Shown here: positions 1 to 23,502 of the stretch, piece after piece
Numbering within the stretch: the stretch's first letter is position 1
Layout of the letters: every line of letters begins with the position of its first letter
Source of the DNA: Tilletiaria anomala UBC 951
Taxonomy: Eukaryota; Basidiomycota; Exobasidiomycetes; Georgefischeriales; Tilletiariaceae
Assembly: GCF_000711695.1 (NCBI RefSeq)
Contig: NW_013546852.1
Coordinates: 1-23,502 of the forward strand
Length of the DNA: 23,502 nt
Direction: 5' to 3'
The notes under the pieces: generated by a model
The model's database searches: none
What the model was told of the DNA's origin: nothing
What the model saw: only the letters and a program-made list of their open reading frames with translations
Program-made: the position numbers and the translations under genes

Positions 1-95
1 TTTTGGTAGACAGGTCTGTTCCTTCAGAGAACAGAGTACTGGAAGCAGAGGGACCAGTGTTCGAGTCGCTTTCTGGACGGAGACTCCAATGAATT
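1..95. repeat. Terminal direct repeat, left copy
   Basis: Positions 1-95 are identical, base for base, to positions 23408-23502. The right copy is preceded by one more T. The repeat carries a 6-bp hairpin (CTGTTC, 7-nt loop, GAACAG) and a second 5-bp pairing (ACTGG with CCAGT). An exact repeat at the very ends of a sequence is what an assembler leaves when the path closes on itself, but a real tandem or dispersed repeat is also possible. Confidence 0.97.
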
Positions 96-2655
96 CGTTG
101 GGGACTAGGCATTGATGTGATGACATACGGGTGACTACTATTTGGGCGATGCGAGAAGAGTTGTCGCACACACAAGATGTGCTGCACACGCCAAACAAGG
201 GTGCTGATTGATGGAAACTGGCCACGATCGGTGGGTGCTACTATTGGAACTGCAGCTGAACCCTTCGACTGCCGCTCCTGGTAACGACGGTCGACCAGTG
301 ACACATTTCGCTTCCAAGTTTGCCTGCATGGCCTCTGATGCCTGATGCCCACGCTTGGCACTGTGATGTGGTGCCGCCCGAATTAAGACTCATCGCAGAA
401 GGTTTAAAACAATCAGGGCTTTGCACGACTTCCAGGCGCGAAGCGGGAAGAATTTAGTGAGTCACAATGCGAGTGGTGGGTGAATTGCAACTTTCCAGGC
501 TCTTTGGTGGTAAACACGAATAACGGTAAGGGTAACGATTTGGAAAGAATCAAAAGGTCAAATCAGCAAATTTGCCCTATCTGCATCTCCAAGTACACAC
601 TCGGACATGCACTAGAACATGTATGTATGTGTAGATACATACGCACAAACACGATACATACTTTGCTGAGCATTATTTTAGAGCTCAGTGCTCAGACTCA
701 GATGCGCAGGTCCCAGATTCAGCTTCCGCTGTACTATGAACGATGCATGTCCATATTCACAATTCAATAAATACATTTATACATATTCACGATTATACAT
801 ACACTATCAAGCTGGTTTCAAACAACCGACCATGCACTAGAGTCCAGCAAGTTGGGTGTTCAGGACTCCAGGCCCCATGAGCGTCTCCCAGCTTTCGGAT
901 TTCGGTTCAGACCGCGGCAGACCATAACAGACCGTGGCGTAACGTTAGCGTAACTGAAAGTCAGCGTTTTAGCACGTTAGCAGCTTTCAAGCCTTCAGCA
1001 TGAACGCATGATGGTTCACGAATAGCAATTGCTTCAAACACACCTGTGAATACTCGACCGCGCTAACTTTATATCCTATCACTTTGCTAGTGAACCTTTC
1101 TTGTTGAAACACTGTGAGCGAAGCTGTATCAGGCCCCTTGTTGATGAAGAAGGTCGTGAACCGTGAAGCGTGAAACGTGAACTGTGAAATGATGTGAAAT
1201 GTGGGTGTGTGAACGTTGGAACGTGAAAGGTTTGAAGTTGAACGTTGGATGAGCGTGGAGATTTGATATTCGAAACGTTGTGATGCATCACATCTACAGA
1301 TTGAAGAGGCAAAGTCTGGTCAGGTCTAGCAGGGCTTGGCCAAACCAGCCCAGTGTAGGTCAGCGGAGTCGAATCAAGACGTGGCTTGAAAGCGCAAGTG
1401 TTGCATCTGTTGCGTTGTTGCATTTGCAGGCGGGTAAAATTGTTGGCACCAGAACAGATGACACAACAAAACACCTGCAGAACGCGAGTGCAGAAACTTG
1501 AAAGCGCCCCTCTGCTGTCACAGGAGTTGCCACCGGTATGCCAAAGCAGTGCGTATATGTAGAGCAGATCAGGGCTTTGCAAGAATCAGTGCAGCTGGGA
1601 ACTTCAGGGCAGGTCAGGGGCGAAGGCGAGGCGCAGGGCGCACGCTGCATCCCCCTCATGCTCAATTTGAATTGCGGATCCGACGACAAGCACGGCTGAA
1701 AGTGATCGAACAAGAACTTTCCGGAAAGGGCCACAACCCTAAAGCTGCGCCTTGGTGCATTCAAAGGGTCTCAGAGTGAAACCCTCACGCTTGTTTGACG
1801 CTTTTGACTGCTTCATGCTGAGACTCCTATCTACGAAGACCATGTCTCGCACTGGTGAAAGGGTTCAGGCGCTCAAGTGTCATTGGAGAGGATGGTATTG
1901 TGAATGCACGAAACGATGAATGATCGAGAACCGAGAACGCGGGCGCTGGACGAATTGCAGATTGGTGCATATGGACCACGGGATTCTTCACGGGTCAAGC
2001 CTGACATTTGTCTGACGCCCAACAGTGGATCACGGCGTCATTGCACTCCTCGCACCCCCGTAGGGAGCCTAGGCATCTGCCTATAACCAGACCCTTCGCG
2101 AGTCCATAAGAAGAGTGGCCAGTCATGGCGCGTAAAGGTGCGAGGTGCACATTGAGCACGTATAACCGTTTGATCAGCCCGGGCAGTACGGCGGGTGGCC
2201 GTCAAATTCATTGCAAAGAAAACAATCAGGTAGTCGTTGGTATTGAGTGAGAACACCTGATGACGGCAAGGCAGAACACCGATACTCATCGGTAAACCGG
2301 TTGTGGTGAGCTAACTACTAGGCAACAAAGCCAGTGGTGTGTGAAGTGTGATGCTACAGATGCAATGCGAATGCTAACGATGTCCACTGAGAGCGGGGAG
2401 GACCTTGGGGATGCAGGCAGCGCTGAGGCGCACGCGATGTGTCCTAGAGAAAATGAGAACGCACACCGCATACGAAGCCTGTGTTTGTCAACGTATCTAT
2501 CGTATAGATCCAGTCTGCGACGCAGAGTCGAGCAAGACGGTCGATGCGTGTCCGGAAGCGAATCGGGCATGTAGACTCCGATCAACACATCTCAAAACCT
2601 TTGACCGCCCGATGGAAAACCAGCTGCGCACCCGCTGTGCGCTCGGCGTGGCAGT
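96..2655. other. Gene-free interval, left end
   Basis: No reading frame here resembles a known protein; the open frames are short and of odd composition. I see no rRNA, tRNA or snRNA signature. Positions about 590-815 are AT-rich, with alternating TATGTATG/ACATAC stretches and a segment near 765-800 rich in TTTATAC-like words. Positions 1155-1199 hold a 7-nt repeat. A 14-mer shared by 412-425 and 1568-1581 is about what chance gives. If the window is circular, this interval joins 22772-23407. Confidence 0.6.
1155..1199. repeat. 7-nt tandem repeat, CGTGAAN
   Basis: Five head-to-tail 7-mers lie at 1155-1189: CGTGAAC, CGTGAAG, CGTGAAA, CGTGAAC, TGTGAAA. After a 3-nt slip another TGTGAAA follows (1193-1199), and looser copies continue to about 1230 (TGTGAAC, CGTGAAA). 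On the other strand the unit is TTCACGN. Similar CGTGAA-type intergenic repeats are, from memory, common in smut fungi. No function can be assigned. Confidence 0.7.
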
Positions 2656-3940
2656 TCAATACGCTTCCTCAGCCGACTCGCGAACTAACCGCCGAACCTT
2701 TTTCTTATACCCAGGAAAGTCTTCCCGCACCTGCTTGGCAGCGTCGACGTTCGCCGGGCTGTCCGTGTTGGGCTTATCCGAGGACAGCAGGCTGATGACA
2801 GACAGCAAGATCGACTCCACGCTGTGCACCGGCATCCACCGCTCGCCGGCATCCTCATAGCCGTATTGGTCCGCGCCAGGCGCGTGCAGGATCGAGATAC
2901 AGACTGTGCCGTCATCATAGACTATAGCAATGACATGGTGCGGAGATCCAAAGGCATGGATCAGTCCGAAAGTCTTCTGAAGCAATAAAGGGAGAATCTG
3001 ACTTACTGTTCGGATGCCACATCTTGGTGAGGAATTTCATCTTGGGTGGAAGAAGCGGGTACTCGGGCGGGAAGATCAGCTCTGCGCGAAGGAATCCTCC
3101 CTCGTACAGTGTGTCGTTCGGCCCAATGATCATGATCTCCCACTGCAGAGAGACAGACCCAGTCAGTTCAGAGCTTCCGGATCAAAGGAGCGGGAAAGGG
3201 ATGCTCCGTCGCCGCCTGAGCACGCCTTGACTGATATGAGTTGAGCCCTCCCACATCCCAGATAAGACTTCTGGAAGGCAGTTTACGTCCGGCCCGACAG
3301 GCACATACGCGCAATGCCGCCAGTCCTACTTTGAGCTCCCTCGCTGCTACCGCGGCATGGCCTTCTAATACATCTGAAGCAGAGCGAGAAGGCCTGCTAC
3401 GTTCGCAAGTAGACCGATGCATAATGGCTAGCGACCGATCCACACTTACTTCGTACAAATTGCTCTCATCTTTCAGGCCAGCGCTGAAGCCGTCAACCGG
3501 GTCTGTGTTAACGGACACAGGTAAGACGTGTAGCCGATGGGAAGGCGCACGGCAAAATGTCAAGACCAGAAGAAATGATTTTGTGCCCAAGTTTGAGCCG
3601 GAAGGAAGTGGCATGGATAAGGGTGCATGTCGATTGAGGGATTGGACGTGAGCATTTGGGGACGCAGGTGTCCAAGAACAGAATCAAGAGTAGGCATAGA
3701 GAGAAAATCACAGGTAGGGTCAGTATACTTGCCACACAAGGATGCGTTATTCATGACAAGGCCGGCCTTAACAAGCAGATAGCCAGTGCTACCGGCGTCG
3801 TGGTGTACCAGCAGGTGGCAAGCGCCGCTGACAGGGCCGACGCGTTAGGAAACGGAGGAGTTCTTGGGCGACTCACGTTTCCGAAGCTCTTGCAGTTGCC
3901 GCTTGAGCAGTAATGTATTGCCACTCGGTGATGCCGACAT
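2656..3940 (-). CDS. Ubiquitin-conjugating enzyme E2, UBE2G1 type
   Basis: Exons (minus strand): 3877-3940, 3450-3502, 3007-3142 and 2656-2921, giving 172 aa with consistent phases; human UBE2G1 is about 170 aa. The enzyme takes ubiquitin from E1 as a thioester and passes it to substrates with an E3. The protein opens with a helix carrying LLLKRQLQELRK. The motif HPVDGFSAGL follows, then DTLYEGG, the YPLLPPKMKF strand and WHPN. The catalytic cysteine is C92 in DDGTVCISILH. The loop after it (APGADQYGYEDAGERW) is the insertion typical of the UBE2G/Cdc34 group. The ending SPANVDAAK fits UBE2G1 better than UBE2G2/Ubc7. Start context is good (A at -3). Introns 1 and 2 (374 and 307 nt) are long for this window; intron 3 is 85 nt. 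The first exon overlaps the end of another same-strand ORF. Confidence 0.95.
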
Positions 3941-4387
3941 CTTGTTGCATCAGTCGTTCAAATCTAGGTGGAAGCCAGACCTTCGGTCTCTTTGATCGGG
4001 AATGAGCAGAGAAAGAGAGCCGCTGTAGGAAAACAAGTGCGAAATGCTTCTTGGGGTGTAAGCTAATCATGCAAAGCGTGGAGCAAGAGAACAAAGGGAG
4101 GCATCGTTGAATGCCGGAAAGCAGAGAAAAAGCAAACGAAATGGGAAGAGTGAGTCCGAGAGCCCTGCTGCCTCTAGCGATCAGGCGAGCATTAACGGAA
4201 GAACGGCGGTACTCACCTCGCGCTCCGTCTTGGTCGGCACAGTTCTCCGGCCGCTGGCGAGTCTTTCTTTCGCCTTCTGAAGAGACCCCTTGAAGGCTGT
4301 TGACTTGTGCTGATGCTTGCTTTCGACAGTCAGACAATTCACACTGCTGAAAGATGTAACCCTCGAGGTCAAACTGGTGGCCATCAT
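3873..4387 (-). CDS. Small basic protein, possibly mitochondrial, overlapping the E2 start
   Basis: I do not recognise this family. Two exons fit well: 4217-4387 and 3873-4022. They are joined in phase 0 across a 194-nt intron with GTGAGT donor and TTTTCCTACAG acceptor. Product 106 aa. It begins MMATSLTSRVTSFSS, a Ser/Thr/Arg-rich, acid-free start like a mitochondrial targeting peptide. A very basic stretch follows (KGSLQKAKERLASGRR), then KRPKVWLPPRFERLM. The second ATG has A at -3 and G at +4. The last 68 nt overlap E2 exon 1 in another frame, and the TGA uses bases of the E2 intron-1 donor. If that intron is spliced, the frame reaches another TGA at 3495-3493, giving 108 aa. It could be a protein on a bicistronic mRNA, an upstream ORF in the E2 leader, or chance. 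About two thirds of exon-1 codons end in G or C, mildly favouring coding. Confidence 0.45.
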
Positions 4388-4915
4388 ATCATTGCATTGT
4401 TTGCGGTGGGGGCACACGCCGTCAAGCACCCACAAATTCTGACTTAGGATGCCTCTGGTCACTATCTGGCTCGCCCCCTGGCCATAGTTCATCACAGCCA
4501 ACAGGGCCACAGGCCAGCCACCAGAGCCCAGAGTTACGTTACACTGCCCAACCACCGAGACATAGGTTGGTACCTTAGGGTTGCCCCGTCAGGGCGGAAC
4601 GCGTTCTCACTTGGTGAAGTGCAATTAGATTCGTGCGGCGTCCCTACAACTTTTTCTCGTTCCAGTGTTGCATATAGATGAGTTTGGGTGGACCTCGTAT
4701 ACAGGCAAACGAGGTGAATACGCAAGGACACAAGAGGCGGCTGGATCGAGCTGAGGACAGCTAACTACTGAGTCGAAACCACCCAGAGAAGCGAGTGGGG
4801 ACGGGAGGTGGAAACTGCCAAAAATCTGCGGTTACACTTTGCAAGGAGTGAGCCCGGCTCCGGCATATAGACCCTTAGGTAGTGTACGCTTGCGCAAACA
4901 AGAGGCACACTAGCC
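4388..4915. promoter_or_regulatory. Divergent promoter region, E2/upstream ORF and RPC2
   Basis: These 528 nt separate the leftward E2/upstream-ORF unit from rightward RPC2 and must hold both promoters. The minus-strand frame of the upstream ORF stays open to 4555, so a longer start there cannot be excluded. I see no clear TATA box or named operator. Confidence 0.5.
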
Positions 4916-7900
4916 ATGCCTCGAGCCGCGCCAACTGCTCGGCGTGGTAAAGTCACCAAGCGCGAGGATGGGGAGAAAGCCGAGCCAGCCACCGCAGAGG
5001 CAGCGTTTCAGGAGGCAGAGGGTGTCGAAGCACACATGGATCAGGACGTCGATATGCCGGCAGAAGCACCTGAGTGCGAGCCCGATCAGGGCGTCCATGC
5101 AGCAGCAGCTGCTGATGAGATGAACATCGACAGTGAACCTGTACATTCGCGTGCCAAAGGCTCCCAGCCCGCTAATGCGGAAACCCTGACCCAGCTACCC
5201 GGCAGCATCAAGGAAATGGCAAATGCATTGGCTTCAGCAAAAGGACCGGGCGGAGGCCCCAAATATGACTCGGCTGCGTTTCTGCAAGAGATGCACGAGG
5301 CGAGCAAGCTTGGCTTGTCATCATTTGATGCGCTGTCTGCGCTCAAAGCGAACATGCTGAACGGAAAAGGAATTATGGAGCCGATCAAAGAGGTTCAAGA
5401 CAAATGGCAACTTCTACCCGCCTTCCTGCAAGTCAAGGGTCTTGTTAAGCAGCACATCGATAGCTTCAATTACTTTGTCGATGTTGGCCTTAAGCAGATT
5501 CTGAAAGCGAACAGTGAGGTCCGGTCGGACATTGATCCGAAATTTTACTGGCGCTACACAGATATTTACGTTGGCCAACCGCAGCGCCCAGGGGGCAGCG
5601 AGCAAGATTTCGACGTCCACGGCGGCGGCGGCGGCGGCGGAAACAAGCGCAGCTACAGGGGGGTCTTTTCGCCACAGGAATGCCGCTTGCGCGACATTAC
5701 CTACTCTGCACCGATCTTTGTTGACGTTGAATACACTCGTGGCGGGAAGATTATCAGGCGGAGGCACATTGAAATCGGGCGAATTCCGATCATGCTCCGA
5801 AGCAATAAATGCGTGTTGGCGGGCAAGACCGAGAAAGAGCTTGCGCAGCTCAACGAATGTCCGCTGGACCCCGGTGGATACTTCGTGGTCAAGGGGACGG
5901 AGAAGGTTATCCTGGTCCAAGAACAGCTGAGCAAGAATAGAATCATTGTCGAAGCAGACACAAAAAAGGGAATCGTATTGGCTAGTGTGACCAGGTGAGT
6001 CTGTCACACTAGGGATATGTTCGTCACGCTGTCGTATCGTTTCTGACCTCTCTCTGCAATTGCAGTTCGACGGCAGAGAGAAAGTCAAAGTCGTATGTGG
6101 TGACCAAGAACAAGCAGATCTACTTGCGGCACAACTCGATCACCGAAGACGTTCCAATTGCGATCGCCTTCAAGGCTCTTGGCGTCACGACGGACAGGGA
6201 GATTGTCGAGCTTGCTGCTGGCCCTAATGAGGAGTTCCGAGAGCTGTTCGCCACCAGCCTGGAAGAGGCTGCCAAGCTCAGGGTTTTCACAAAGCGACAA
6301 GCGTTAGACTACATCGGCCGCAAGGTACGGCGCAACACACGACCCGGCGCGATGAGAAAGCCTACATATGAAGAGGCGATTGACGTGCTCGCAACTGTCG
6401 TCATTGCTCACGTCCCAGTTGACAACCTCAATTTCCGCCCCAAAGCGATCTTCCTGTCGACCATGGTTCGCCGAGTACTGATGTGCATGCAAGACGAAAA
6501 GCAAGTGGATGACCGCGACTATGTTGGCAACAAGAGGCTTGAGCTCGCCGGGCAGCTGCTCTCGCTGCTGTTTGAAGATTTGTTCAAGAGGTACAACTAC
6601 GACCTGAAGGTCGCGTTCGACAAAGTGATGAAGAAGCCGCATCGCACGTCGGAATTTGACGCCAACCACCACCGGCAGTACCACACGGATCACATCACCT
6701 CTGGCTTTGTGCGAGCGATCAGCACAGGTAACTGGAACTTGAAGCGATTCAAAATGGAGCGAGCGGGCATTACGCACGTCCTTTCGCGTCTGAGCTACGT
6801 TGCAGCGCTGGGTATGATGACGCGCATCAGTTCACAGTTCGAAAAGACGCGCAAGGTCTCTGGTCCACGTGCATTGCAGCCGAGTCAATGGGGCATGCTC
6901 TGTCCGTCGGATACGCCGGAAGGAGAGGCGTGTGGTCTGGTCAAGAACTTGGCACTCATGACACACATCACCACAGAGATCGAAGAGAAGCCGCTCGAGA
7001 CGCTTGCCTTCATGCTCGGTGTCGAAGATGCCAGCCTGCTGACCGGCGCAGAGATGTATCGTCCCGACTCGTACCTTGTTTACCTCAACGGCGTCGTCAT
7101 CGGGCTCACGCGCTATCCAGTACGCTTCGTCACGGCTTTCCGCAAGCTCCGGCGTGCTGGGCGCATATCTGAGTTCGTCTCCATCTACACCAACAGCCAT
7201 CAGCAAGCTGTGCACATAGCTTCGGACGCTGGCCGCATCTGTCGCCCGATGATCATTGTCGAAAAGGGTCAGCCAAAAGTGCGGCGAGAGCATATTTTAT
7301 CTCTGCAGCGAGGTGATATGACCTTCGACGATTTTTTGGCTGCAGGCCTGATTGAATATCTCGACGTCAACGAGGAGAATGACTCGTATATCGCTCTGTA
7401 TGAGCGTGAGATCATTCCGGCAACGACCCATCTCGAGATCGAGCCGTTCACCATCCTCGGGGCGGTGGCTGGGTTGATTCCATACCCGCATCACAATCAG
7501 TCGCCGCGAAACACATATCAATGTGCTATGGGTAAACAGGCCATTGGTGCGATCGCATACAACCAACTCAACCGTATCGACACGCTGCTGTATCTCATGG
7601 TCTATCCACAGCAACCGATGGTCAAGACCAAAACGATCGAGCTGATCGGGTACGACCGTCTACCAGCAGGCCAGAACGCCATGGTCGCGGTCATGTCCTA
7701 CTCAGGGTACGACATTGAAGACGCTCTCGTCCTGAACAAAGCGTCCGTCGATCGAGGATTTGGTCGCTGCCAGGTGATGAAGAAGACGACTGTGCAGTTG
7801 CGTACCTACAACAATGGTTCGCACGATCGCATCGGTGATGTCCCCAAAGACGCCAACGGCGAGGTGCCGCGCAAGTATGAGATGCTCGGCGTCGACGGGC

Positions 7901-9019
7901 TGCCCGAAGTGGGAGCCGAGGTCAGGGAGGGTCACGTGTACATCAACAAGCAGTCGCCGACGACGGCCAACGACACTTCCGACTCAGGTATGGTCGCTAA
8001 CGAGTCGCAGACAGTTTATCGTTCGAGTGGCGCGACGTACAAACTTAAGACGCCATCTTACATTGACCAGGTGATGATCACCGACTCTGATGGAGACCAA
8101 CAGATTATCAAAGCGCTCCTCCGCCAGACACGCCGGCCCGAGCTGGGCGACAAGTTCTCCAGTCGTCATGGACAGAAAGGTGTTTGCGGCCTGATCTCGC
8201 CGCAGGCAGACATGCCGTTCACCGACCAAGGCATTAACCCTGATGTCATTATGAACCCGCACGGGTTCCCCTCGCGTATGACGGTCGGCAAGATGATTGA
8301 GCTGCTTGCAGGGAAGGCGGGCGTGATCACGGGCCAGTTGCAGTACGGCACGGCGTTCGGCGGCTCGAAGGTGGAGGACATGAGCCGGCTGCTGATCGAG
8401 AACGGGTTCAGCTACTCTGGCAAAGACTTTTTGACGAGCGGCATCACAGGAGAGCCGATGGAGGCGTACGTCTACTTTGGGCCAATCTACTATCAAAAGC
8501 TGAAGCACATGGTTATGGACAAAATGCATGCACGTGCGCGTGGCCCGCGCGCTATCCTTACGCGCCAACCTACCGAGGGTCGTTCGCGGGATGGAGGTCT
8601 GCGTTTGGGAGAGATGGAGCGCGACTGTCTGATTGGATATGGTGCGTCCCGGCCACTTCATAGCACCTCTTCATTAGTATGCGATTGACCACTTACTTGT
8701 CCTCTTGGTCCTCTGCAGGCGCAACGCAGCTTCTGCTCGAACGGCTGATGATTTCGTCGGACGAGTTTCCCGTTGACGTGTGTCAGAGCTGCGGATTGCT
8801 TGGGTACAACGGCTACTGCAGTTACTGCAAGAGCAGCAAGGCGGTTTCTAACATCAAAATTCCGTATGCCACCAAGCTCCTGTTCCAGGAGCTGATGGCC
8901 ATGCAGGTCGTCCCGAGGCTTGTGCTTGAGGTGGGTCTCAGTTCGCGCTTCCTGCTGGTGCCGAATGTACCATCCATTGACGTTCCCACCGCCTTTCATT
9001 CCTGCAGGATGCCGTCTAA
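4916..9019 (+). CDS. RPC2: DNA-directed RNA polymerase III subunit RPC2 (second-largest subunit)
   Basis: Exons 4916-5994, 6066-8641, 8719-8930 and 9008-9019 give 1292 aa; introns are 71, 77 and 77 nt. This catalytic beta-like subunit of nuclear RNA polymerase III makes tRNA, 5S rRNA and U6. Conserved sequence starts near residue 163 ([19 protein letters not shown]). The fork region shows [13 protein letters not shown] at 639-651. The hybrid-binding region shows [13 protein letters not shown] at 906-918 and [12 protein letters not shown] at 1054-1065. The C-terminal zinc ribbon uses C1240, C1243, C1252 and C1255. The family is usually about 1130-1150 aa; the excess is mainly an acidic, Ala-rich N-terminal extension of about 130 aa plus a run of eight glycines near residue 238. 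The last exon encodes only DAV and stop; continuing exon 3 past its GTGGGT donor would add an unrelated tail. RPC2 rather than RPB2/RPA2 is called from overall similarity. Confidence 0.97.
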
Positions 9020-9188
9020 AACAAGCTAATGCGTCTCGATAGATCCAGCGCCTCCTTTGCAAGTACCATTGTAGCATACGTTGCATTACACCACGACAAC
9101 CGCACTGCCTCGAAAATAATGTGCAATACCTTTCTATGATAGCGACAGGAACAACAAGAAAAATGGGATGACACGCAGAGCACCCGCA

Positions 9189-11597
9189 TCAGAGCCTCGC
9201 CTTGAACACCCTCGTCTCTGTACCGGGGCCGATGTCACCTAGGAGATGGCGGCGGATGTACGGGTTCACAAAGACATTGTGCGGGTCCACCTGCTGCCGG
9301 AGCGCGAGGAAGTCGTCCCAGTGCGGGTAGAGCATGCGCAGCTCTATGGGTCCGCAAGTGTGGGCCTTTGCCCAGTGGGGCCTGCCATTGTAGTGGCGCA
9401 TGAGCGCCTCGAACTTGGCGAAAAGGGCGCGATAGCGCACATTAGCGTTGTACGGGCGGTACATGACGATGCCAATGAAGCAGGTCGGGCGCGCATGACA
9501 GTGCGACAGCCAAATCCCGTCCGGCGCTGCGAAACGGATCTCGATGGGGAAGTGGACCTGTTCACCAGATGCCAGGCGCGACTCTTCGGCGAGCCAGTCG
9601 CGCAGTGCGCGGATGGCATGCGCAGATAACTCGAATGGGATGGCCCACTCGTTGGTATACTGCGGGAAGAGGCAGTCCATGTTGTAGATAGTGTGCGAGA
9701 TGCCCGTCATGGTGGACGACACGTGCTCCGGGTGCAGCGGCTGCAGAGGCGGCGGGTAGTCACGCGGGGTCATCGTAAGCACCTCACCGTTGCTGCTACT
9801 CAGATCGCTGGCGTCGTGACCATCCGTGCTTGCGGGGGCATTTGGCAATGCTGCGTGGCTGGTGGTGCCGACGGGCTCAGCGAACGCCTGGAGCGTCGCA
9901 TCCGCGTCTTGCACAAGAGCCTCGCGCTGCTCCTGCTCCTGCTCCAGGTGTCTGGCGATGGTGATTGGCGCATGGAGCCCCGTGGCGCGTGCTTGCACGG
10001 CGCAGACTGCCTGCGGCTGCGTTAGGCGGTGGATGATGCGCACAGCGGCGGGTGTCCAGCTGCGACGGAAGCGCGCCGCATAGAGCAGGAACTCCGTGAG
10101 ACCGTGCGCGATGAGGCGCGTGTGCAGCCGCTCAGTGAGTGGAGGACTCGGCGTGCGCGCATGCGGCTGCGGGCCGTCATACCGCATGCGGTCGGCGCGC
10201 AGGAGCGTGCACATGCCCAGCTGTGGGAACCACATGATGCGGACGTGCTGCGCGCTGCACACGACTTCGTGCAGGCGGCGTTGCGCACGCGCGCTGATGG
10301 TTGCTTCTGCGTCTGCCTCCTCTCGCCTATCCCCGCAGGCGGTAGCTGATAACGATGATGATGGGGAGGAGGAGAGTGGGCACTCGATACAGGTGCGTAC
10401 CAAATTGCCCTGTGCGTGCGGTGCGTCTGCAGTAGCGGGAAATGAATAGGGATAAATGATGGACGGGTCCGAGAGTGTACGCGCTCGTGCGCGCAGCGGC
10501 AGCATGGCCGCGAGTGGCGGGAGCCTGACGCTGTGCGCGAGGAGTGCGCCGATGCTGTGTGCGCGCGGGGCGCCTTGCGCCGGCGACGCGGCGCCGAAGA
10601 GAAAGTCGAAGCGGACTTGCTCGCTGAGCTGGCGAAGGCGGAACGCAGGCTCGACGGCGAGCTTGACGCGCACGATGAGGCCCGTGGCACCGAGTCCGCA
10701 GAGCGTCGCGTTGAAAAGCTTGGGGCGCACGGTGCGGCTACAGTGCAGTAGCTGCGTGCCGCCACCCGCTTCGCCGCATGTGATGACGTCGAGCGCGAGC
10801 ACTTGTGCTGAGACGACGGGGAAGGCGATGCCGGAGCCGTGTGTGGCGGTGGAGATGAGTCCGCCGATAGTCTGCTCCGAGATCGAGCCGACATTAGTCA
10901 TGGCGAGGGGGACGGGTTTCGCGGCGGCGAGGAGCGTGTGCATGTCCGAAACATACGTGCCCGCAAGGACCGTGATGCTCGGCTGACCTCTTGTGCGCGC
11001 TGCACGCGTGGCATGTGCGTCCCAGAGTGTATCATGCGTATCGAACGCGTTGATCTGCACGCAACCGCTGAGACCATCCATACGTACCATCCAGCCCTCA
11101 CGGCCGCTGTCGCCGCCGGCCATCATAAGATCGCTGGGGGAATGCGCGCGTCCAACGGCGCGGAGCTCGACGGGCGCCGCAGGCGCGCGAGCAGTAGTAA
11201 CATCATCATGATGTGTGGCGGGAGCTGAGGTTATGTTGCGCCTGCGCGCAAGCTCGACGATCGCCAGGCATTGCGCGACGTGCGTCGGCGACCAGAGCAC
11301 GTGCGGCGCCGCGACAAAGGTGCCTCCCCAGTTTTCGACTGTGTGGCTGCGGCGGGCGGCGGTGCTGTCAGACAGGCGCGCCGGCTGAGCGAGCGCCGAA
11401 AGCGCGGGCGTTGAGAGAGCACGGACGTCTGGCAGAGTGCTGTCGCTGTGCGCGTCGAGTGTCTCTGCGTTTGCTGATGGTAGTGGTGCATCGCCATGAA
11501 GCGTGCGTGGTGGCAAGGGGGGCAGCGCGTCAGCGGGGACGACGTGCGCTAGCGCTGGCGCTGGGGCGGATTCCGATGCCGATACCGAGGCCAACAT
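9189..11597 (-). CDS. ALO1: D-arabinono-1,4-lactone oxidase
   Basis: One uninterrupted frame of 802 aa from the ATG at 11597-11595. The enzyme oxidises D-arabinono-1,4-lactone to D-erythroascorbic acid, the fungal ascorbate analogue; the yeast enzyme is a mitochondrial-membrane flavoprotein of about 526 aa. The FAD-binding domain shows VENWGGTF (87-94), GRAHSPSD with H152 as probable flavin-linking histidine, and NVGSISEQTIGG near 235-246. The ALO domain shows HVRIMWFP (451-458), GRPHWAKAH (738-746) and DPHNVFVNPYIRRHL at the end. The extra length is low-complexity sequence: a Ser/Ala/Pro-rich leader of about 85 aa and two insertions near 337-440 and 545-625. The frame stays open another 113 codons to an ATG at 11936, with a Leu-rich segment, so a longer N-terminus is possible. 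The gene is convergent with RPC2, with 169 nt between stops. Confidence 0.93.
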   Translation of the reverse strand: MLASVSASESAPAPALAHVVPADALPPLPPRTLHGDAPLPSANAETLDAHSDSTLPDVRALSTPALSALAQPARLSDSTAARRSHTVENWGGTFVAAPHVLWSPTHVAQCLAIVELARRRNITSAPATHHDDVTTARAPAAPVELRAVGRAHSPSDLMMAGGDSGREGWMVRMDGLSGCVQINAFDTHDTLWDAHATRAARTRGQPSITVLAGTYVSDMHTLLAAAKPVPLAMTNVGSISEQTIGGLISTATHGSGIAFPVVSAQVLALDVITCGEAGGGTQLLHCSRTVRPKLFNATLCGLGATGLIVRVKLAVEPAFRLRQLSEQVRFDFLFGAASPAQGAPRAHSIGALLAHSVRLPPLAAMLPLRARARTLSDPSIIYPYSFPATADAPHAQGNLVRTCIECPLSSSPSSSLSATACGDRREEADAEATISARAQRRLHEVVCSAQHVRIMWFPQLGMCTLLRADRMRYDGPQPHARTPSPPLTERLHTRLIAHGLTEFLLYAARFRRSWTPAAVRIIHRLTQPQAVCAVQARATGLHAPITIARHLEQEQEQREALVQDADATLQAFAEPVGTTSHAALPNAPASTDGHDASDLSSSNGEVLTMTPRDYPPPLQPLHPEHVSSTMTGISHTIYNMDCLFPQYTNEWAIPFELSAHAIRALRDWLAEESRLASGEQVHFPIEIRFAAPDGIWLSHCHARPTCFIGIVMYRPYNANVRYRALFAKFEALMRHYNGRPHWAKAHTCGPIELRMLYPHWDDFLALRQQVDPHNVFVNPYIRRHLLGDIGPGTETRVFKARL

Positions 11598-14131: not shown

Positions 14132-15381
14132 TTATACACTAGCTGCCCCCATGACCTGCATCATCTCTTCATAGATGGTGAACACGATACCGCCTGAGAG
14201 CACGAGCCTGGCAAGACGGGTGGTCGATCCGCGCCATAGCGCACGTACGCCTTCTTCGCGCACAGTGGTAGTGAAGCAGTTGAACGTCGAAGAGTACCGT
14301 TGTTTCGCTTCGAGCGACTGCATCCGCGTCTTGACAGTGTCAAATGGCATAGTCGTGTCTGTTTGATGGACGAGGAACGATGATCGATCAGTACGATGTC
14401 TCATCTCGAAGAATGCTGATTGCGACTTACAAACGGTGATGACACCCGCCGTGGCGCCGATTGCGAACGTAACACCGCCAGGCAGCGTCTGGCCTGGTCG
14501 AGCCGATCCCTGGACGAGATTTTTGATGGTGCTGTAGCTGCCAAGACGGACCATGCTGTTGGCTCCTTGTCTGAGCATGACGGGGAATAACCCGCGGTAG
14601 ATGCCGCTGATGCCTTCCTCGCGCACAATTGCTGCTGTACCGCCGATCAAAGTAGGCGGATACCGGCGCACAGCGCGCTTGCCATCATCAATGAGCTTGG
14701 TTCTGCAATGTCGCGATGTTTGTCAATATAGCAATGCAAGAGACCATTCGTTATTTTTTCACTTACTTGATCGTTTCGGACGGGGTTACTGCAAAAATTG
14801 CCTCCATCATGCCAGCGCCTAGACCTGCGATCAAACTCCTCGGCCCACTCAATCTCCCCTGGTCATCTCGTAGCAAGGACTTGAAGTGATCAAACGCGAG
14901 AAATCTCACGCCAGCCTACACTCAGATAGAAATCGGTTAGCCAAGCGCTCTAGTTTGATAATCATAAGGGGGTAAAGAGCACCGACCTTTACCGCATTCC
15001 CAGTCACCAGGGCACCACACCCGTTATACAATCCTTTGATGCCATCTTTGGCGACGGTCGACCTGACAATATGTATCGGCCCTGGTGGCTGTTCAGACAA
15101 AGGATTCAACGCCTTAGCGGTCATTTCTGAAGTCGAGTGTTACCCTAAAGTGATAGCCAGCTAACCTTTTCCCCATTCCGCTGAGCAAATTGCGCCACCG
15201 TCTTGGTGTACTCTATCGGATAAGTCACGAAGCCTTCGACTGCACCAGCCGTAGCACCCGCAATGAGCGAGTGCATCGGCTTGTCCCTCCTTGCGGCTAT
15301 GATATTCGGTGTCTGGTTAACGCCAAGCTTGCCGCTAATGCCTGGACCATGTTGCGACGAGGACGATGATGATCCAGTCAT
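14132..15381 (-). CDS. CTP1: Mitochondrial tricarboxylate (citrate) carrier, CTP1 family
   Basis: Exons (minus strand): 15166-15381, 14987-15112, 14767-14915, 14431-14702 and 14132-14358, giving 329 aa. Introns are 53, 71, 64 and 72 nt. The family exchanges citrate or related tricarboxylates across the inner mitochondrial membrane, supplying cytosolic citrate for acetyl-CoA. All three carrier signatures Px[DE]xx[KR] are present: P55/E57/K60, P159/E161/K164 and P259/D261/K264. Typical CTP sequence is seen in GAVEGFVTYP, LYNGCGALVTGNAVKAGVRF, AGMMEAIFAVTPSETIKTKL and IYRGLFPVMLRQGANS. The Ser-rich leader is longer than in the yeast protein. Intron 1 needs an AAG acceptor to keep the frame; the nearby CAG would leave a 39-nt intron in the wrong phase. 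Intron 3 splits the K164 codon. CTP1 is preferred to other carriers from motif wording, not from a database search. Confidence 0.95.
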
Positions 15382-15730
15382 GATCGTTACCTCGGTCTCT
15401 GATGCAAGTTATTCAGCCGGCCTGGAGTTGAGGTCTCACTGAGCGCTCTTTCCGATATATCACTGGTTACTCGGCACCTTTTACGTGTGGGCGTAGCTTT
15501 GACCGAGGCCTGCTTCGGGCTGCAGCAACTATACAACACCTCAAGCTCAGAAAACAGATGTGCAAGCAAAAGCTTGATGGTGAAAGAGAGTACGAGAGGG
15601 AAGTTGGCTCTGGCGGGCACAAAGGCGAGGACAGTTCTTTCATTTCGACATTCTTTTTTTTGCGCGTTGCTTTATGTTCACCATGTTTCTACTTGTGGCA
15701 TTGTCTCCGTTCAAAGGCGTCTCAATCCAC
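15382..15730. promoter_or_regulatory. CTP1 upstream region
   Basis: These 349 nt lie upstream of leftward CTP1 and should include its promoter and leader. The decayed serine hydrolase remnant begins directly beyond. I see no recognisable regulatory motif. Confidence 0.45.
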
Positions 15731-16320
15731 TCAGTATCTCCATTCTCGATCATCCCATGGCATCAAGGTATAGGGCCTGAAAGGTGCGTCCCACCATCGA
15801 AAGCCAAGCGCTTCACTTTGGCCCTTGATGGCGGGCACCCACTGGGGCTCGATGCCAATGGAGAAACCCCCGATGATATCGAGGTTGTTGGACGGCAAAA
15901 GCTGCGCCTGGATCGTTCCCGCGAGGCCGTTCTCGCGATCGCAGAGCCAGTAGTGGGTTGCGAGCCCCGTCTACTGGTTAGCGCGCCGTCGCTCATTCAG
16001 TTTCCGAGACCCGTTCTCTTCAGACCACCGAGTGCCCACTGTTTCGTTGCGCCCGGCAAGCTGATCCGGTGTGACAGGTCCAGCGTTGCGCCTTGGAACG
16101 ACTTCCTAAGCGACTTGACCTGCGACGCGTTTATCTGCGGAAGAAACAGCGTGTCGACCGTTTCAGGCTTCAGGATTTGCAAGCCCGTATTGGAGTACTT
16201 TCCATTGTTGAGCAGTGCCCAGCGGATCTGCACGTACTCGGAACTCTTGCCATCCAGACCTGCCTCGCCCTACTGAATTTCGATCTAGATTGTGAAGTCG
16301 CCCACGTTGCGCGTCAACAA
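15731..16320 (-). pseudogene. Decayed serine hydrolase (beta-lactamase/transpeptidase-like), C-terminal part
   Basis: Minus-strand segments resemble the C-terminal half of fungal secreted beta-lactamase-fold serine hydrolases. They read VGDFTI, then GEAGLDGKSSEYVQIRW, WALLNNGKYSNTGLQILKP, ETVDTLFLPQI, KQWALGG, and in another frame TGLATHYWLCDRENGLAG and QAQLLPSNN. They do not share one open frame. In-frame TAG codons lie at 16287-16285, 16272-16270 and 15973-15971, and a frame change is needed between about 16020 and 15975. The TAG before TGLATHYW falls where the family usually has Trp. The N-terminal catalytic part with the SxxK motif was not found. A signal-peptide-like ORF of 48 aa (16767 to 16621, MFALVLTMVFAAS) may be its old start, but the link is weak. 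Unusual introns or sequence errors cannot be ruled out. The family call rests on remembered motifs. Confidence 0.6.
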
Positions 16321-17296
16321 CGACGCCCTTGAGCTATACCCCACAAAGAGGGATGCAGAACTCATTCTCACCCTGGTGTGATTGACAAAGTACTAAGAAG
16401 CCATCAGCGGCCTGTTTAATGCATCGACGTGGAAGTCACGGCAGCGAAAGGATACACGTGCCACGCATGTGTTACTTGCCGAATATTCCACATTTGTTTC
16501 CCCGTTCATTCCCTCCGCTTGAGCTCTTCCACACGATGCGCGGTGCGCCCCGATCTATAGTCTCTCATCCCTGCAGCCAGTGAAGCCTGCTGGTTGGGAG
16601 ACGTAATCACCGTACTGAGCTCAAAGCTGGAAGCCGGCAACAGTCTCTGCACATGATGCAGGAACGAACGAGAGATCGGCACAACGCTTCTCCGTCGCTT
16701 TGCTTGACATGTCGCTTGTGTTAATAAGCGAAGCCGCAAATACCATCGTAAGGACAAGTGCGAACATCTTTACAAACAGGCCGAATACAGGTACGGCCCA
16801 GAACAAAGGATAAGGAGACGACTTGAAGGGCGAAAAGTATGAGCGAAGAGATGGATGAATGTAGTACATGCATGTGCTGAGGGAGGCACGGCTTTTAGGG
16901 GAGGAACAAGGGCGAAGGAGACTAGGTGATGATAGCACGTAAAGGCGGCAAAAGATCAAGGGCCAGAGCAACTGCTCGCCCAGCACGCTCGTACCACTGC
17001 ATTCTGACATGCATCCGATGCCCCCACCGCCATCCACTCAGCTGCCCTTCCCCTCCTCCATCGCCCATCCTCCAGGTGTGCTTGCCACCTCTCATCATCT
17101 ACTGCGCTGCATCGTCCATGCATCTTTCTCATCTAGCGCCGCTCTGCTGTGTGTGCGTGTGTGTGTGCGTGTGCTTGCGCGTGCGTTGGCGGGTGTGTAT
17201 GCCTGCCTCTACCAGTCAACGCCGAGCGAGGGGGTGCTCTTCGGTGCGCGCTGCGGAGACTGGAGTTGGATTGCGGGGTGTTTTGGGAGGGGCAGT
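16321..17296. other. Interval between serine hydrolase remnant and eIF5A
   Basis: No intact gene is recognisable. The minus strand at 16621-16767 encodes a 48-aa frame starting with a hydrophobic, signal-peptide-like segment, which could be a remnant of the hydrolase N-terminus. A TG-rich microsatellite lies at 17148-17174. The eIF5A 3' UTR should lie just below 17297. Confidence 0.5.
17148..17174. repeat. TG-rich microsatellite
   Basis: Mostly alternating TG with CG interruptions at about 17155 and 17168, fading into GC/TG-rich sequence to about 17200. It lies just beyond the 3' end of eIF5A. Probably neutral simple sequence. Confidence 0.75.
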
Positions 17297-18536
17297 TTAC
17301 TTGCCAGCGGGGGCCTCCTTCCAAGCGAGCGCCTGCTCCTCGCCCATGGCAGAGACAATGGTGACCATGAGGTCCTTGCCGTCGTCGAAGGCGGACTGGA
17401 TCTCCTCGCCGAGCGTGCCCTCGGGGACCTTGACGTCGTCCTTGCTGGTGCCGTCCGAGGTCATGAGGTTGAGGAAGCCGTCGTCGACGTTGACCAGCTG
17501 GTACTCGTTACGCGAGACATTGGGGACATCCATGTTGTGCGTAGAGGGCGAGATGTCTTCAAGCTTCTTGCCCGTGAAGATGTCGACAGCGACAAGGTGC
17601 ACCTTGGCGTGACCGTGCTTGCCCGTCTTGGACGTGGACATGTCAACAATCTATTTCAAGGAAAATGCATCATGTTAGATGTGAATTAAAGCGGATTGAG
17701 AGGCGCTGGCAAGTAATTCTCACCTTGCAAGGCCTGCCCTTGATAACGACGTGACCGCTCTTGCGCAGAGCCGAGCACTGCATGGGGAAAGTCAACGAGG
17801 CGCCGGCGTTGGCCGAGTCGAACTCGACATTGTGCTTCTCGTCGTCAGACTGTTGATAAAAGGGGGTCCAATCAGCCAGATGTTCGACAGTGAAAAGAGG
17901 TAAAAGCGAAGGAAGGAAATGGACAGAATTGAAGGCAAGGCCATGGGTGACCAAGCCAGGCAGGCTAGGATATCAGGGCACTGGCTAAATAACAGCCCTT
18001 GCTGCTGGTCAGCGCGATAGCTAAGACGATAGCAGAGGGTACCCCTCTCGTACAGTCGCCCTATTGTAGCCAGTAGGTGTGGTGTGGCTGCACTGCTTGA
18101 TGCCGCCCGCATCACAACCATGCATGGCAACGTCCTAATCGTTGTTCACAGCCAGGGCTCGGCCAAGGCCCTTGGCCGGCTGGATTTTTCTTGAAAGATC
18201 GAGCAAAAGGGGGAGTGGCTGCAGCTCTTCCTCTCCCCTTTGCTGCAATCTTCGTTTTGCGCAATAGAGATACTCCAGAAGCTCGTATGCGCTCCACCAG
18301 CCTAGCTCAGCCCGGAGTGGCGGAAAGGAAGCCTGTTCTAGATCCACTGCATCTTTGCAGGTTCAATGGCGGCACCGATGCCTGCACAGGGAGGGCTGGG
18401 CTGGTCCAACGAGTGATGTGACAGGAAGGAAGGAGGTCTACCCGAAGAGAAGCATTCCCGCGGGCCGACGTGAAGCAGCGAGCAGGAAGAAGGGCGGGCG
18501 AGGCGAGGGAAAGGAAGCGGCGAGCCAACTTACCAT
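17297..18536 (-). CDS. Translation factor eIF5A (hypusine-containing)
   Basis: Exons (minus strand): 18534-18536, 17724-17849 and 17297-17650, giving 160 aa; typical eIF5A is 157-160 aa. The factor binds the ribosomal E site and helps peptide-bond formation and termination, notably on proline runs. The hypusination loop [14 protein letters not shown] is intact, with K54 as the predicted modified lysine. Other family sequence includes [43 protein letters not shown] and [14 protein letters not shown]. The first coding exon is only the ATG: CCACCATG is followed at once by GTAAGT, and the second exon begins [10 protein letters not shown] after an ACAG acceptor in phase 0. Intron 1 is 684 nt, the longest in the window; intron 2 is 73 nt. 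A long first intron suits a highly expressed translation gene. The gene is divergent from CBF1. Confidence 0.97.
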
Positions 18537-19418
18537 GGTGGCTGTGAGTGAAAACTGGACGTGAATGCGCTGCTGGATTCGAAGAGGCCCAAGCGAAGGA
18601 GGAAATGTCGAACACCTGTCGAGATGGAGACGGGGTGGAGAGAAGAAGAGGTCAAAAAAGAAGGCAGGGGATGAGATGTGAGCTGGCAGTCGATCTGAGC
18701 AAGCAAAACGCAAGCCAAGCAGAACAGCGGCCGCTTCTGGCGAGAAGAGTTTTTTTTTTGGTGGAGGGAGAGGACAGCGGGAGAGTGCCCCCATAACCCA
18801 AGGCACTGCACCTGTGCGAGCCACTGTTGCTGGAGCGCAGCAACCCAGCGACTGCAGCGCGCCGCCCGCAGTGCCCCTCTCCCCTCACCACTGGCAGCAG
18901 CAGACTGAGCCGGTGGCGGCGGCGGAAGGGCGCAAGGAACTAGGCCTCCTGCAAAATTGAACCAAGCTCAATTCATCACGTGCCGCTCGACTCGACTGCA
19001 TCGCAACAATACAAGCCATCACCTGACCTCCATCCGGCCAAACACCAGTGCACAGCTCACACCTCCCATCGCGCCTCACCCACCCCCCCCAAAGCACACA
19101 AGCAACAGTCTTGCCGCACTTGGCGCGCATCCAGAAAGCTATCCCTCCCTCCAGGCCAGGCAAAAGATACACGAGGCAGCAACAGCCGCAGCGTGCTGAG
19201 CACTCGGTTTCGCTTGCCAATCAGGCAGCCGGTTAAACACTGTGCAGCACGTCACGAATCAAGCCATTACGCGCCGCGCCGCGCCCTCCCCACTTACATC
19301 CGTCATTTTATCCACAGTCGAAGCCTCGCGACGCGTGCCCGTGCCAGAAAACGCGCACAGCGTACGGCACATTCCGTTTCTTCTGGCCCATCGCTGGTCG
19401 CGTATTCGGCCTCTCACC
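18537..19418. promoter_or_regulatory. Shared divergent promoter, eIF5A and CBF1
   Basis: These 882 nt separate the eIF5A and CBF1 start codons, which point away from each other, so the promoters and leaders of both must lie here. It holds one RTCACRTG site (18975-18982), a T run near 18750-18759 and a C run near 19083-19090. Several plus-strand ATGs precede the CBF1 start, so upstream ORFs are possible if the leader is long. Confidence 0.6.
18975..18982. promoter_or_regulatory. Predicted CBF1/E-box site
   Basis: ATCACGTG matches the established Cbf1 (CDEI) consensus RTCACRTG completely. It lies about 440 nt upstream of the CBF1-like start codon and a similar distance upstream of the eIF5A start, so autoregulation or co-regulation is possible. 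CACGTG cores also occur inside coding sequence here, so the motif alone is weak evidence. Confidence 0.5.
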
Positions 19419-21465
19419 ATGGCGGCATCCACCGCAAGCACGCAGCAGGCGGGGGGAGGAGCCGAAGTGGCGCCATCCTCGAACGCGTCCATTGTAGCAA
19501 GCATCGCGGACGGAGCAGCAGCAGCGGTCGCCGCGGGCGGGATCGAACCGCCCGTCATGGCTTCCGTTCTAGGCCTCTTGCGATCGGGTTTGTCGCAGGG
19601 AGGGCTAGGTACCGCCATCGAGATTCTCGTGAGTCGATGCTCCTTTTGTTCACCGTACTTATGCCGCCTCGCTCGTGCCGGACACGTCTTGCAAACTTGA
19701 AACTGAACGTTCGACCAACTGGCTGACTCCCCTTCGCCCGTATGTCTGCGCAGACACGCCAGCAGCAAGGACTCCCTGTCCCACCAGCCTCGAGCTCAGA
19801 TCCGCAGCACGTGCAAGAAGCATGGATGCTCGTCAATACCCTCGGCAGAGCGCAAGGCGGGCCTGCATCTGTCCTGGCGTTGTTGCTGCAGCTCAAGAAC
19901 GCGCGCGATGCGCACCAGCAGCCTTCTTCTACTTCCCGCTCTGCGGCCGCAGGACATGGGCCAGAGGTAGGAGCAGGAGCAGGGGCGGCAGCCGGGCACA
20001 AGAACGGGCACGCGCACAGCGCCGAGACAGATGGCAAGCTGGGGCTGCTGGACGACGCGCCGGCGCCGCCTGGTGCGGAGCACCTATCGATACCGCACGT
20101 TCCAGACCCTGCCGCCGCATCATCCTCGTCATCCAAAGCAGCCAGCTTGTCGGACGCCCGGGAACCGCGTGCAAATGCCATGAGCGCGAGCAGGAGCGGC
20201 GGTGCAGCGTCAACGTCAGAAGCGAGCGGGAGCACGGGCGCAGGCGGCGCAGACATAGTGGATGTTCCGCCTCCATCGTGGGAGGAGTCACAACAGCAGC
20301 AGCGGCTACAAGACAATAGCAGGGTTGGCGATGAAGGAGCCATAGATGGCGATCGGAGAGAGTCTGCACAGGGGCTCGTATCCCTCGGAACATCACAGAC
20401 AGTGTCCGACGAAGTAGCAGGGGCAGGGGCATCAGGCGGGCGGACTGGCACCTCGGCTGCTGCTGCCGGGGACGAGTCCCCGTTGCCTGTTGTCGGAGAT
20501 GCGAGCTTGGCGGGCGCCGACGCGGCGGCGGCGACGGGGAGGCGGAGAGGCCGCAAGCGAAAGGATGCGGCAGGCGTCGTCACGGATGGACCGCACATCA
20601 AGGCGCGGCTTGAGCAGGACGAACTACAGCGGAAGAATAGTCATGTGCGTTTCTTTCCCCCCCCTTTACGGCCTACTGTCAAGCTATCGAGCTGTCCGCT
20701 GATCACAAACCCGTTTCCCCATCACCGAAAAAAAAGAAAGAAGTCGAGCGCCGCCGCCGACACGCGATAAATGAAGCGATCGACTCGCTTGCCACCATCG
20801 TACCCGGTTGCGAAGCCAAGACGACGAACAAGGGCAGCATCATCACACAGGCTGTTGCGTACATCCACGACCTCAAGAACAACGAGGCGAGCAACATTGA
20901 GAAGTGGACGCTCGAGAAGCTCCTTATGGACCAGGCGCTCGACGACGCGCGCAACGAGGCCGAGCGCGCCATCCGCGAGAACGACCGGCTGCGCGAGGCG
21001 CTCGAGCGCGCGGGTATTGACGTCGACCTCGTCGCCGGAGACATCGACCTCAGCACCGGCGGTGACGCTCAGCAGCAACAGCAGCAGCAGCAGCCTCAGC
21101 CACCTGGACCGGCTTTGACGCCGGGTCGGTTGCAGGAGCCAAATACGCAGAAGCACCATCACCAATTGCAATTGGTCACGCGTGGCACCGGCACAGGCAT
21201 GAACGGGGGCCATCGCGGGATAGACCATGGAGAAGAGGACGGGATTGTTGAGGCGGCCGTCGAAGCGCAGCTAGCCGACGTCGTCGCTGGTGGTGCTGGC
21301 AGCAGCAGTACCACCGCCCCCACCACCACCAACATGGCTCCCACTGCTGCTGATGTCCCCACGCCACCAGCTGACGCAAGCAGTGGCAGCGGCATAGGGG
21401 GCAAACGTGAAGCTCACGCTTTGCCTGACACGCCCACGCGGTCGGCCAAACGGGCGAAAACCTAA
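19419..21465 (+). CDS. CBF1: CBF1-like bHLH-leucine zipper transcription factor
   Basis: Exons 19419-19628, 19754-20644 and 20737-21465 give 609 aa; introns are 125 and 92 nt. The basic region reads NSHKEVERRRRHAINEAI, with H367, E371 and R375 being the contacts that read CACGTG. The helix-loop-helix (DSLATIVPGCE, KGSIITQAVAYIHDLKNN) and zipper-like helix (EASNIEKWTLEKLLMDQ) follow. The IEKWTLEKLL wording is close to yeast Cbf1, which binds centromere element CDEI and controls sulfur-amino-acid genes; the role here is inferred. About 360 residues before the domain are Ser/Ala/Gly-rich and look disordered; after it come a glutamine run and a basic C-terminus, KRAKT. Intron 2 falls exactly between H367 and K368 and uses an AAAAG acceptor; without it the bHLH is lost. 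Yeast Cbf1 is 351 aa, so this protein is much longer. Confidence 0.93.
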
Positions 21466-21735
21466 TTGCGACGGAATCTGAGATCGCGCCAGGGTGCTAT
21501 GTAAGGACTGGGAATGTCCCTAGCAGTGCAGTGCAGACCAATTTGCCAATCAATTGTATTCTTAAAGGTTGTAGTACGTCAAGTTCAAGCGTATCACATC
21601 GAGCAGTGGGACTGGACGAGTCGCCCGAGTCTAGGGTATCACGGAGGCCGTTACATCAGCGTTGATACGGCGAGGGTATACTAAAGAATCAAACTCTATC
21701 ACGAGCTATTGGCTTTCGCGCCGCCGCACCGCGCC

Positions 21736-22771
21736 TCAGATCACATGCTGGCGGACCCATTTAACGAAGCTAGGCACGTCCTCAGCGATCTTGCTGGGCA
21801 GGCTCCTTTCGGTCAGCCATGTGGGGATTCTGCCGGCTGGGTCGCTCTGCGTGCTCATTCTCCACGCCGTCGTCCCGTCCGCCTGCTCCGCAACGGCCTC
21901 GACGCTGACGTACCTGCCGCGGATGTATGCGCCTCTTTGCTGCGGCGCGGCGTCGTGGGATACTGGGACGCTGATCACGAGGAACGAGCGCAGCCGCTGC
22001 GCTTCGCCATCGTCGGCCGGTGGCCTGGGAGCCGCCAGCTCGCTGTTTGAGGTGGGGAAGAGAGTGGAGAGCTGCTCCTTGACGAGAGCTTCGTGCTCCT
22101 CAGAAAATGGGGACGCGTGCGCGGGCAAGTCGACGGTGATGATCAGCTCGACAAAGTCGCGGTCTTTCGTTATGATGGGCAGCTTGTCTGGAATCAGTTA
22201 AGCGAAACACAGGTGGGACGTCGTCAGTGCCCATGCTCGGTAGCGGGAGAGCGTGCTTACGGGAGCGTGTGGCATACATCCGTTTCTCCATACTTCGGCG
22301 GTAGTGCCAAAGAATGAGTCGACCTTGGTAGTCTCCCTGATGGCATGAATGTATTTGGCCTCGTTTGGCGAGTGGTCGAGGAGCAGTCCAGCTCTGAAGG
22401 CCTCGTACTTGGTTTCCGTGTGGATCTGAATTGCGGCGATGTTATTGAAGCCCATCAATGGAAAAATTTCTTTCTCGAATTACATGACTGCGCGGAGTCG
22501 ATTTAAAGCTCACACTGGTTCTACCGTGCCAGCTTAGATTCCCCTCGCGGCCCGACATAGTGCTCTCGCTCGAGAAGGTCTGCACGTGGCCACCATCCTG
22601 GCTTGCGTTCGTGAACTTCTTTCCGTTCTTCCACTTCAGGCTTTCTCGCGTCAGTGCAATGCTGCGCAGTGTGTAGGAGCGCAGAACTTCTTCGCGCGCT
22701 GTGTCCCCTGTCGGATATGACGAGAAGGGCGTAACGGTCAAGTTGAGCGGAAACTCGGTTGTGGTGGCCAT
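21736..22771 (-). CDS. DUF3074 (START-like) domain protein
   Basis: Exons (minus strand): 22514-22771, 22278-22425 and 21736-22187, giving 285 aa; introns are 88 and 90 nt. The wording matches fungal DUF3074 proteins, whose fold is predicted to be a START-like lipid-binding cavity; their ligand and function are unknown to me. Key segments are SWHGRTSIHTETKYEAFRAG (80-99), LLDHSPNEAKYIHAIRE, AEVWRNGYKLP (exon 2/3 join), RDFVELIITVDLP, RGRYVSVEAV, WRMSTQSDPAGRIPTWLTE and IAEDVPSFVKWVRQ near the end. The GTATGC donor at 22277 was chosen over GTAAGC at 22260 because it keeps phase and restores GYKLP. No signal peptide or membrane helix is seen. The gene is convergent with CBF1, with 270 nt between stops. 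Confidence 0.85.
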
Positions 22772-23407
22772 CTTGAAGTGAGTGAAAGGGCTGCGTAGGA
22801 TGCGACGCAGGGGCTGGAACTTTCTACGATGTCGGCATGCGAGACGAGGCAAGGCAATGTTTAAACGGATAAAGACGTGCAGCAGGATACGATGACCATG
22901 CCGCTCTGTCGAGGAGATCCCCTCCTAAAGGTCAGGACGATGCCGCAGGCTCGATCACTCTTCTACATGTGAAGATGGGTAGAGTGCTACAGTGCCAGAT
23001 ATGTGTGTGTGCCAACTTCTCCATTCTGAGTTTCTTCATGCCGCGGGATTTGGATGCTCGGGCATCCGAGTGTCTCCCCCCGCCGCCAGACCAAGTCAAG
23101 CTGCTGGGTGGACACTCGATCCATGACTCTACTAATCATCATCGTCCAGAGCTGCTGCCAGATTTGGTACGGCTGGGTCTCAAGATGCAACGGTTTATAA
23201 GAATGGTTGCTTAACATTCGCAAGGGCAAAGAACGGCTGCGCCCTTTTTTCTTTCCGAGCATGCGAACTTATTTTGGGGCCTCTTCTAGCAGGTCAACCC
23301 AAATGCACAGTGCGGGGTGGCCTCTTCTCGGTGACCATGAGCAATTGACCTTGCATCGTTAGCACCACGCGCCAGTTGCATTTCAATCTCTGTCACCATG
23401 ACTCGCT
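22772..23407. other. Gene-free interval, right end
   Basis: The left part must contain the promoter of the leftward DUF3074 gene. No further gene is recognisable. Near the right edge an ATG in good context (TCACCATGA, 23398) opens a 33-aa frame that runs through the terminal repeat to a TGA at 23497-23499. It is too short to call as a gene. Confidence 0.5.
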
Positions 23408-23502
23408 TTTTGGTAGACAGGTCTGTTCCTTCAGAGAACAGAGTACTGGAAGCAGAGGGACCAGTGTTCGAGTCGCTTTCTGGACGGAGACTCCAATGAA
23501 TT
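23408..23502. repeat. Terminal direct repeat, right copy
   Basis: Identical to positions 1-95. The identity runs to the last base of the window, and the left copy starts at its first base, so the true repeat length cannot be judged. The unique unit between repeat starts is 23,407 bp. Confidence 0.97.

Follow-up and report, generated by a model that had tools for sequence, protein, structure and literature searches.

The delta and sigma elements of yeast are examples of solo long terminal repeats (LTRs), and the GAP1 circle of the same organism is an example of a circle derived from LTRs. Both resemble in some respects the arrangement at the two ends of a 23,502-bp stretch of the Tilletiaria anomala UBC 951 genome (the window, contig C170, 56.3% GC), as do the overlaps left between contigs by a de Bruijn graph assembler. 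For budding yeast, formation of circles by recombination between LTRs is reported in PMC4751563. For the assembler ALLPATHS-LG, PMC5905499 gives K=96 as the word length at which a default run builds unipaths; adjoining edges therefore overlap by 95 bases. According to PMC4056295, the T. anomala genome was assembled with ALLPATHS-LG at 25x depth into 289 contigs totaling 18.7 Mb, has 56% GC and contains less than 1% repeats. The contig set searched here comprises 202 contigs of this strain (18,410,546 bp; the shortest, C202, is 11,219 bp), so that 87 would lie outside it; the contig numbers follow falling size among the contigs seen. The window begins and ends with the same 95 bases, here called R, which lie inside a dispersed element. 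The likely explanation is a K-1 assembly overlap at this repeat: the window would be a linear chromosomal segment beside another contig, C72, and two copies of the element (E1 at its start, E2 at its end) would have been made identical by gene conversion.

The two copies of R occupy window positions 1-95 and 23408-23502, both on the plus strand. As the preliminary description had reported, the first and last 95 bases match and the overlap stops at both edges: the match is exact and flush, and when all lengths from 15 to 1999 were compared, prefix and suffix agreed at 95 only. There are 75 repeated 20-mers across the window, of which the first and last ten listed belong to the R pair, and one 95-mer pair gives that number; apart from the R pair, the window thus has no exact repeat as long as 20 bases, and no inverted 20-mer repeat was found in it. 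A chance repeat as the origin of the matching ends is excluded by an exact flush match of this length. R is also found at positions 1-95 of C72, on the minus strand and again flush with the contig edge, so that it stands at three contig edges. In one reading direction, the reverse complement of C72 and the window both end in R, and the window also starts with it; a single continuation after R was found.

The length of 95 is best explained by the assembler, as K-1 with K=96, and not by this DNA; R at the window edges would be a vertex of the assembly graph. In a survey of 78 ends of 44 contigs (both ends for 34), in which the terminal 110 bases were compared, every terminal stretch of at least 15 bases in common was exactly 95 bases long, a size constant across unrelated contig ends at all five separate vertices. 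Besides R, these are four further end pairs, each with a flush common stretch: C186/C163, C178/C164, C179/C188, and C173/C199. Together with R at the C72 edge and with the K of 96 given in PMC5905499, these exact overlaps support one option raised in the preliminary description, that of a graph artefact in which 95 is K-1. The likeness to K-1 overlaps of de Bruijn contigs lies in the flush, exact 95 bases, and in the repeats present at two other vertices that were examined closely; the difference is that here both ends of one contig, plus a third contig edge, that of C72, meet at the vertex.

At the first of these two vertices (C186/C163), C17 and C163 hold the entire repeat, inferred to be 139 bp long; C186 breaks off within the first 95 of these, C159 begins with the last 95, and C17 follows C163 for 38 bases further past the repeat. 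At the second (C173/C199), the repeat is carried by C59, which C78 matches over all 247 bases compared, and C173 and C199 begin with its last 95 bases. From these layouts, one flank keeps the repeat while the others are cut at 95 bases, C78 and C17 being exceptions. By comparison with the C186/C163 vertex, the window start takes the role of C163, while C186 has its counterparts in the window end and C72; with this model from the same assembly, a joining 95-base overlap therefore needs no self-closing circle. Among the remaining pairs, C164 and C178 overlap end to end. A transfer RNA (tRNA) gene suspected by eye at the C179/C188 vertex was not found there by ARAGORN, with or without introns, or by Rfam at gathering score. 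The exact 95-base sharing at all four pairs could help to flag contigs of this assembly or to put them in order.

The element containing R is about 330 bp long and has at least 39 other places in the contig set, some partial (two lists, of at least 32 and at least 39 matches, were merged by hand, with the window pair and C72 left out). For tests of ends, flanks and identity, 27 other copies were cut out and aligned. A TG start is found in 21 of the 27, and a TG start with a CA end in 20; 15 start with TGTCAC, 15 end with GTGACA, and seven have both, giving a short inverted repeat. Between the 5 bases preceding a copy and the 5 following it, the fraction of agreeing positions is 0.474, vs. 0.256 for crossed flanks (permutation p = 5e-5 for the 27 copies; p = 9e-4 for the 19 with independent flanks, a set that excludes L054 and seven copies lying in a larger common repeat). 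The size of 5 bp was picked first by eye on several copies, and lengths 2-10 were then tested on the 27 others; 5 alone stood out, with no excess agreement at lengths 2-4 or 6-10. Target-site duplications of 4-6 bp are expected of solo LTRs. Because of its TG..CA ends, 5-bp duplication and size, the element looks like an old, dispersed solo LTR, as judged from its sequence.

It resembles the solo LTRs of LTR retrotransposons in these properties and in its dispersed single copies; it differs in that no full-length coding element was found (no pair among the listed copies is spaced by 4-7 kb, and Pfam gave nothing in two open reading frames beside one copy) and in the age of the copies here, whose mean pairwise identity is 0.729. 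A DNA transposon (miniature inverted-repeat transposable element, MITE), raised by the short inverted ends, was set aside, as the TG..CA ends, 5-bp duplication and length of about 330 bp suit a solo LTR better, going by the usual properties of the superfamilies. There is no sign of repeat-induced point mutation as the source of the divergence (transition/transversion ratio 1.37 over 351 pairs). The seven copies in the larger repeat (L036, L037, L041, L042, L047, L052, and L053) have up to about 2.8 kb in common at 70-77% identity; its outer parts give inverted matches of about 90-140 bp to each other, and it is possibly an old composite transposon, in a genome described as having less than 1% repeats.

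E1 is 320 bp long: its first 17 bp are on C72, and the remainder lies at window positions 1-303 (plus strand), ending CAGTGACA at 303. It is followed at 304-308 (plus strand) by CATTT, the putative 3′ target-site duplication, whose 5′ partner CATTT lies at C72:113-117 (minus strand). E2 is represented by its first 17 bp at 23391-23407 (plus strand, beginning TGTCACCA), which differ from those of E1 at 8 of 17 positions and are followed by the 95 identical bases of R; its 5′ flank, at 23386-23390 (plus strand), is ATCTC. The CATTT that precedes the element on the reverse complement of C72 thus agrees with the flank at 304-308 at 5 of 5 bases, and the ATCTC at the window end at 1 of 5. Crossed flanks of other copies gave a 5/5 match in 7 of 702 pairs (27 copies) and in 0 of 342 (19 copies).

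Because the CATTT pair links the window start to C72, and not to the window's own end, E1 most likely inserted at a site where the two were joined in an ancestral chromosome, the order being C72 (reverse complement), element, window, on a linear molecule. This pairing argues strongly against the window having only its own end as natural neighbor. The preliminary description had offered an extrachromosomal circle among its readings; as a standalone circular replicon this is rejected, since C72 enters the same vertex and carries the target-site duplication that matches the window start, and continuity into chromosomal flank, which a standalone circle would lack, is indicated at R. A duplication, or a circle alongside the chromosome, would keep the junction of C72, E1 and window, and the flank pairing is therefore compatible with either in addition. 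For scaffolding, C72:1-117 (minus strand) and window 1-308 can be placed side by side by the 95-base overlap and the target-site duplication.

Put together, the matching ends would correspond to one and the same vertex in a K=96 de Bruijn graph, of which each contig meeting there keeps the 95 bases. The vertex would lie in an old dispersed solo-LTR-like element, and two of its copies, E1 (spanning C72 and the window start) and E2 (at the window end), are identical over 95 bases or more. With the path undecided, the assembler would have cut at R, so that the reverse complement of C72 and the right end of the window stop there, and the left end of the window keeps the rest of E1. The window would then directly follow the reverse complement of C72 on a linear chromosome, and E2 would run on into a contig outside the 202-contig set (whose shortest member is 11.2 kb), or have been trimmed. 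A recent ectopic gene conversion covering 95 bp or more, which is our first choice for the origin of the identity, would have equalized E1 and E2 over R.

Several observations weigh against this account. The window is the only contig, among the 34 with both ends sampled, that overlaps itself, and two ends do not follow the 95-base rule: C78 ends 42 bases short of its vertex end, and C17 runs 82 bases beyond one. As to the element, E1 starts with GG and not TG, so that its left boundary rests on alignment, and true flank pairs with 5 of 5 matches are rare among the other copies (2 of 27 and 1 of 19, with L035, which matches at 5/5 under one boundary placement and not the other, scored as no match). 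The identity of E1 and E2 is itself an oddity. Across the 351 pairs formed by the 27 other copies, exact matches reach at most 32 bases, vs. 95 here; the longest match of E1 to any of the 27 is 25, and that of the known part of E2 is 17. At the mean identity of the family, a 95/95 match has a probability of about 1e-13. A special recent event is therefore required. The partner of E1 lies on the same contig, at a distance of 23.4 kb and in the same orientation; random conversion would seldom give such a coincidence, and a duplication or circle predicts it.

Nor was a contig continuing E2 found in the set. On contigs besides C72, the searches list no exact match of 95 bases to window 1-420, 200-3200, 3000-22999, or 23200-23502, and for window 200-22999 the DNA searches turned up no second copy; these score best candidates only, so that absence is not proof. 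The pattern expected of the 3′ part of E2, GTGACA followed by ATCTC, occurs at 16 places, of which the one at C128:2801 is nearest to a contig start. None of the seven on contigs of known size is within 2 kb of a contig end, and the other nine are also more than 2 kb from ends, by listed sizes or by bounds assuming falling size order. Gene conversion and a crossover producing a hybrid element would have the same local look; with no continuation of E2 found, the sequence cannot decide between them.

It is accordingly worth considering that the junction closes in the cell, with a hybrid LTR-like element bounding a 23.4-kb tandem duplication or a circle that carries RPC2, eIF5A and other housekeeping genes. 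Taken as a whole we regard this as unlikely. Its chromosomal form would be a 23.4-kb tandem duplication, arising from an unequal crossover of E1 with E2 and represented in the assembly by one collapsed unit, the junction consisting of the first 17 bases of E2 and the remainder of E1. The order observed (5′ end of E2, R, remainder of E1) is what such a crossover leaves, and an exact R beside 8 differences in the preceding 17 bases is directly accounted for, as are the two contig ends that enter R and the single contig found leaving it; nor, for a duplication or a circle, is any coincidence needed for both copies to bound one contig. In the last unit, on the other hand, the native continuation would be expected to leave the window just before R and to start a contig with approximately window 23313-23407, and no such contig was found in a set that is without short contigs; crossing over between copies about 27% diverged would also be expected to be rare. 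The tandem duplication, by itself, is in our view an unlikely candidate.

An extrachromosomal circle formed by LTR-LTR recombination alongside an intact chromosome would have the same hybrid-element geometry, and the LTR-derived circles reported for yeast (PMC4751563) count in its favor. The likeness to these Ty circles lies in a segment with genes that is flanked by LTR-like copies in direct orientation; the difference is that, for the window, a closing junction is a conjecture. A minority form would not be expected to prevail in an assembly at about 25x (the depth is from PMC4056295), genes with one copy in the contig set argue against the window existing solely as a circle, and the CATTT pair and shared vertex bind its start to C72. 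We consider such a circle highly improbable. A wrong local closure, in which gap patching or chimeric reads put E1 sequence in place of the true continuation of E2, would account for exact identity where the 27 other copies have at most 32 exact bases in common. However, a stop exactly at the 95-base vertex is best read as the result of following 96-mers of corrected reads, and this explanation is very unlikely, if somewhat less so than the circle. A K-1 overlap between segments of a linear chromosome, with gene conversion between E1 and E2, is retained as the favored explanation.

The gene content of the window bears on its description as carrying single-copy housekeeping genes. Several exons at 4916-9029 (plus strand) belong to RPC2, the second-largest subunit of RNA polymerase III, by Pfam and by chain match (1307 bits to the RPC2 chain 5fj8_B, vs. 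631 to the highest-scoring chain with any other name). Copy number by protein was checked for this polymerase gene alone; elsewhere in the genome its protein has matches at 27-51% identity only, on C52 and C47. By Pfam, a D-arabinono-1,4-lactone oxidase (ALO) region lies at 9189-11936 and an eIF5A exon at 17297-17641, both on the minus strand, and to this extent the earlier identifications hold. For the gene previously called CTP1, the identification holds to the level of a mitochondrial carrier (exon or exons at 14132-14671, minus strand).

The Pfam scan covered ten open reading frames of the window and then three more, two of which were the same frames again. Among those scanned, the recognized exon nearest the left end is that of a ubiquitin-conjugating enzyme (2656-2985, minus strand), the one nearest the right end is a DUF3074/START-domain exon (21736-22128, minus strand), and no Pfam family was found in a reading frame at either edge. 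The window has no tRNA and no Rfam family at gathering score. Long plus-strand reading frames at 19742-21465, rich in a few amino acids and without a Pfam family at E 0.1, are possibly one gene.

Matching contig ends such as these are easily mistaken for evidence of a circle. Three things point instead to the word length of the assembler: the size of the overlap, the return of that size at contig ends unrelated to these, and the third contig edge that enters the vertex. A junction that does close would represent LTR-mediated copy-number change, or LTR-LTR rearrangement, in a relative of the smut fungi.

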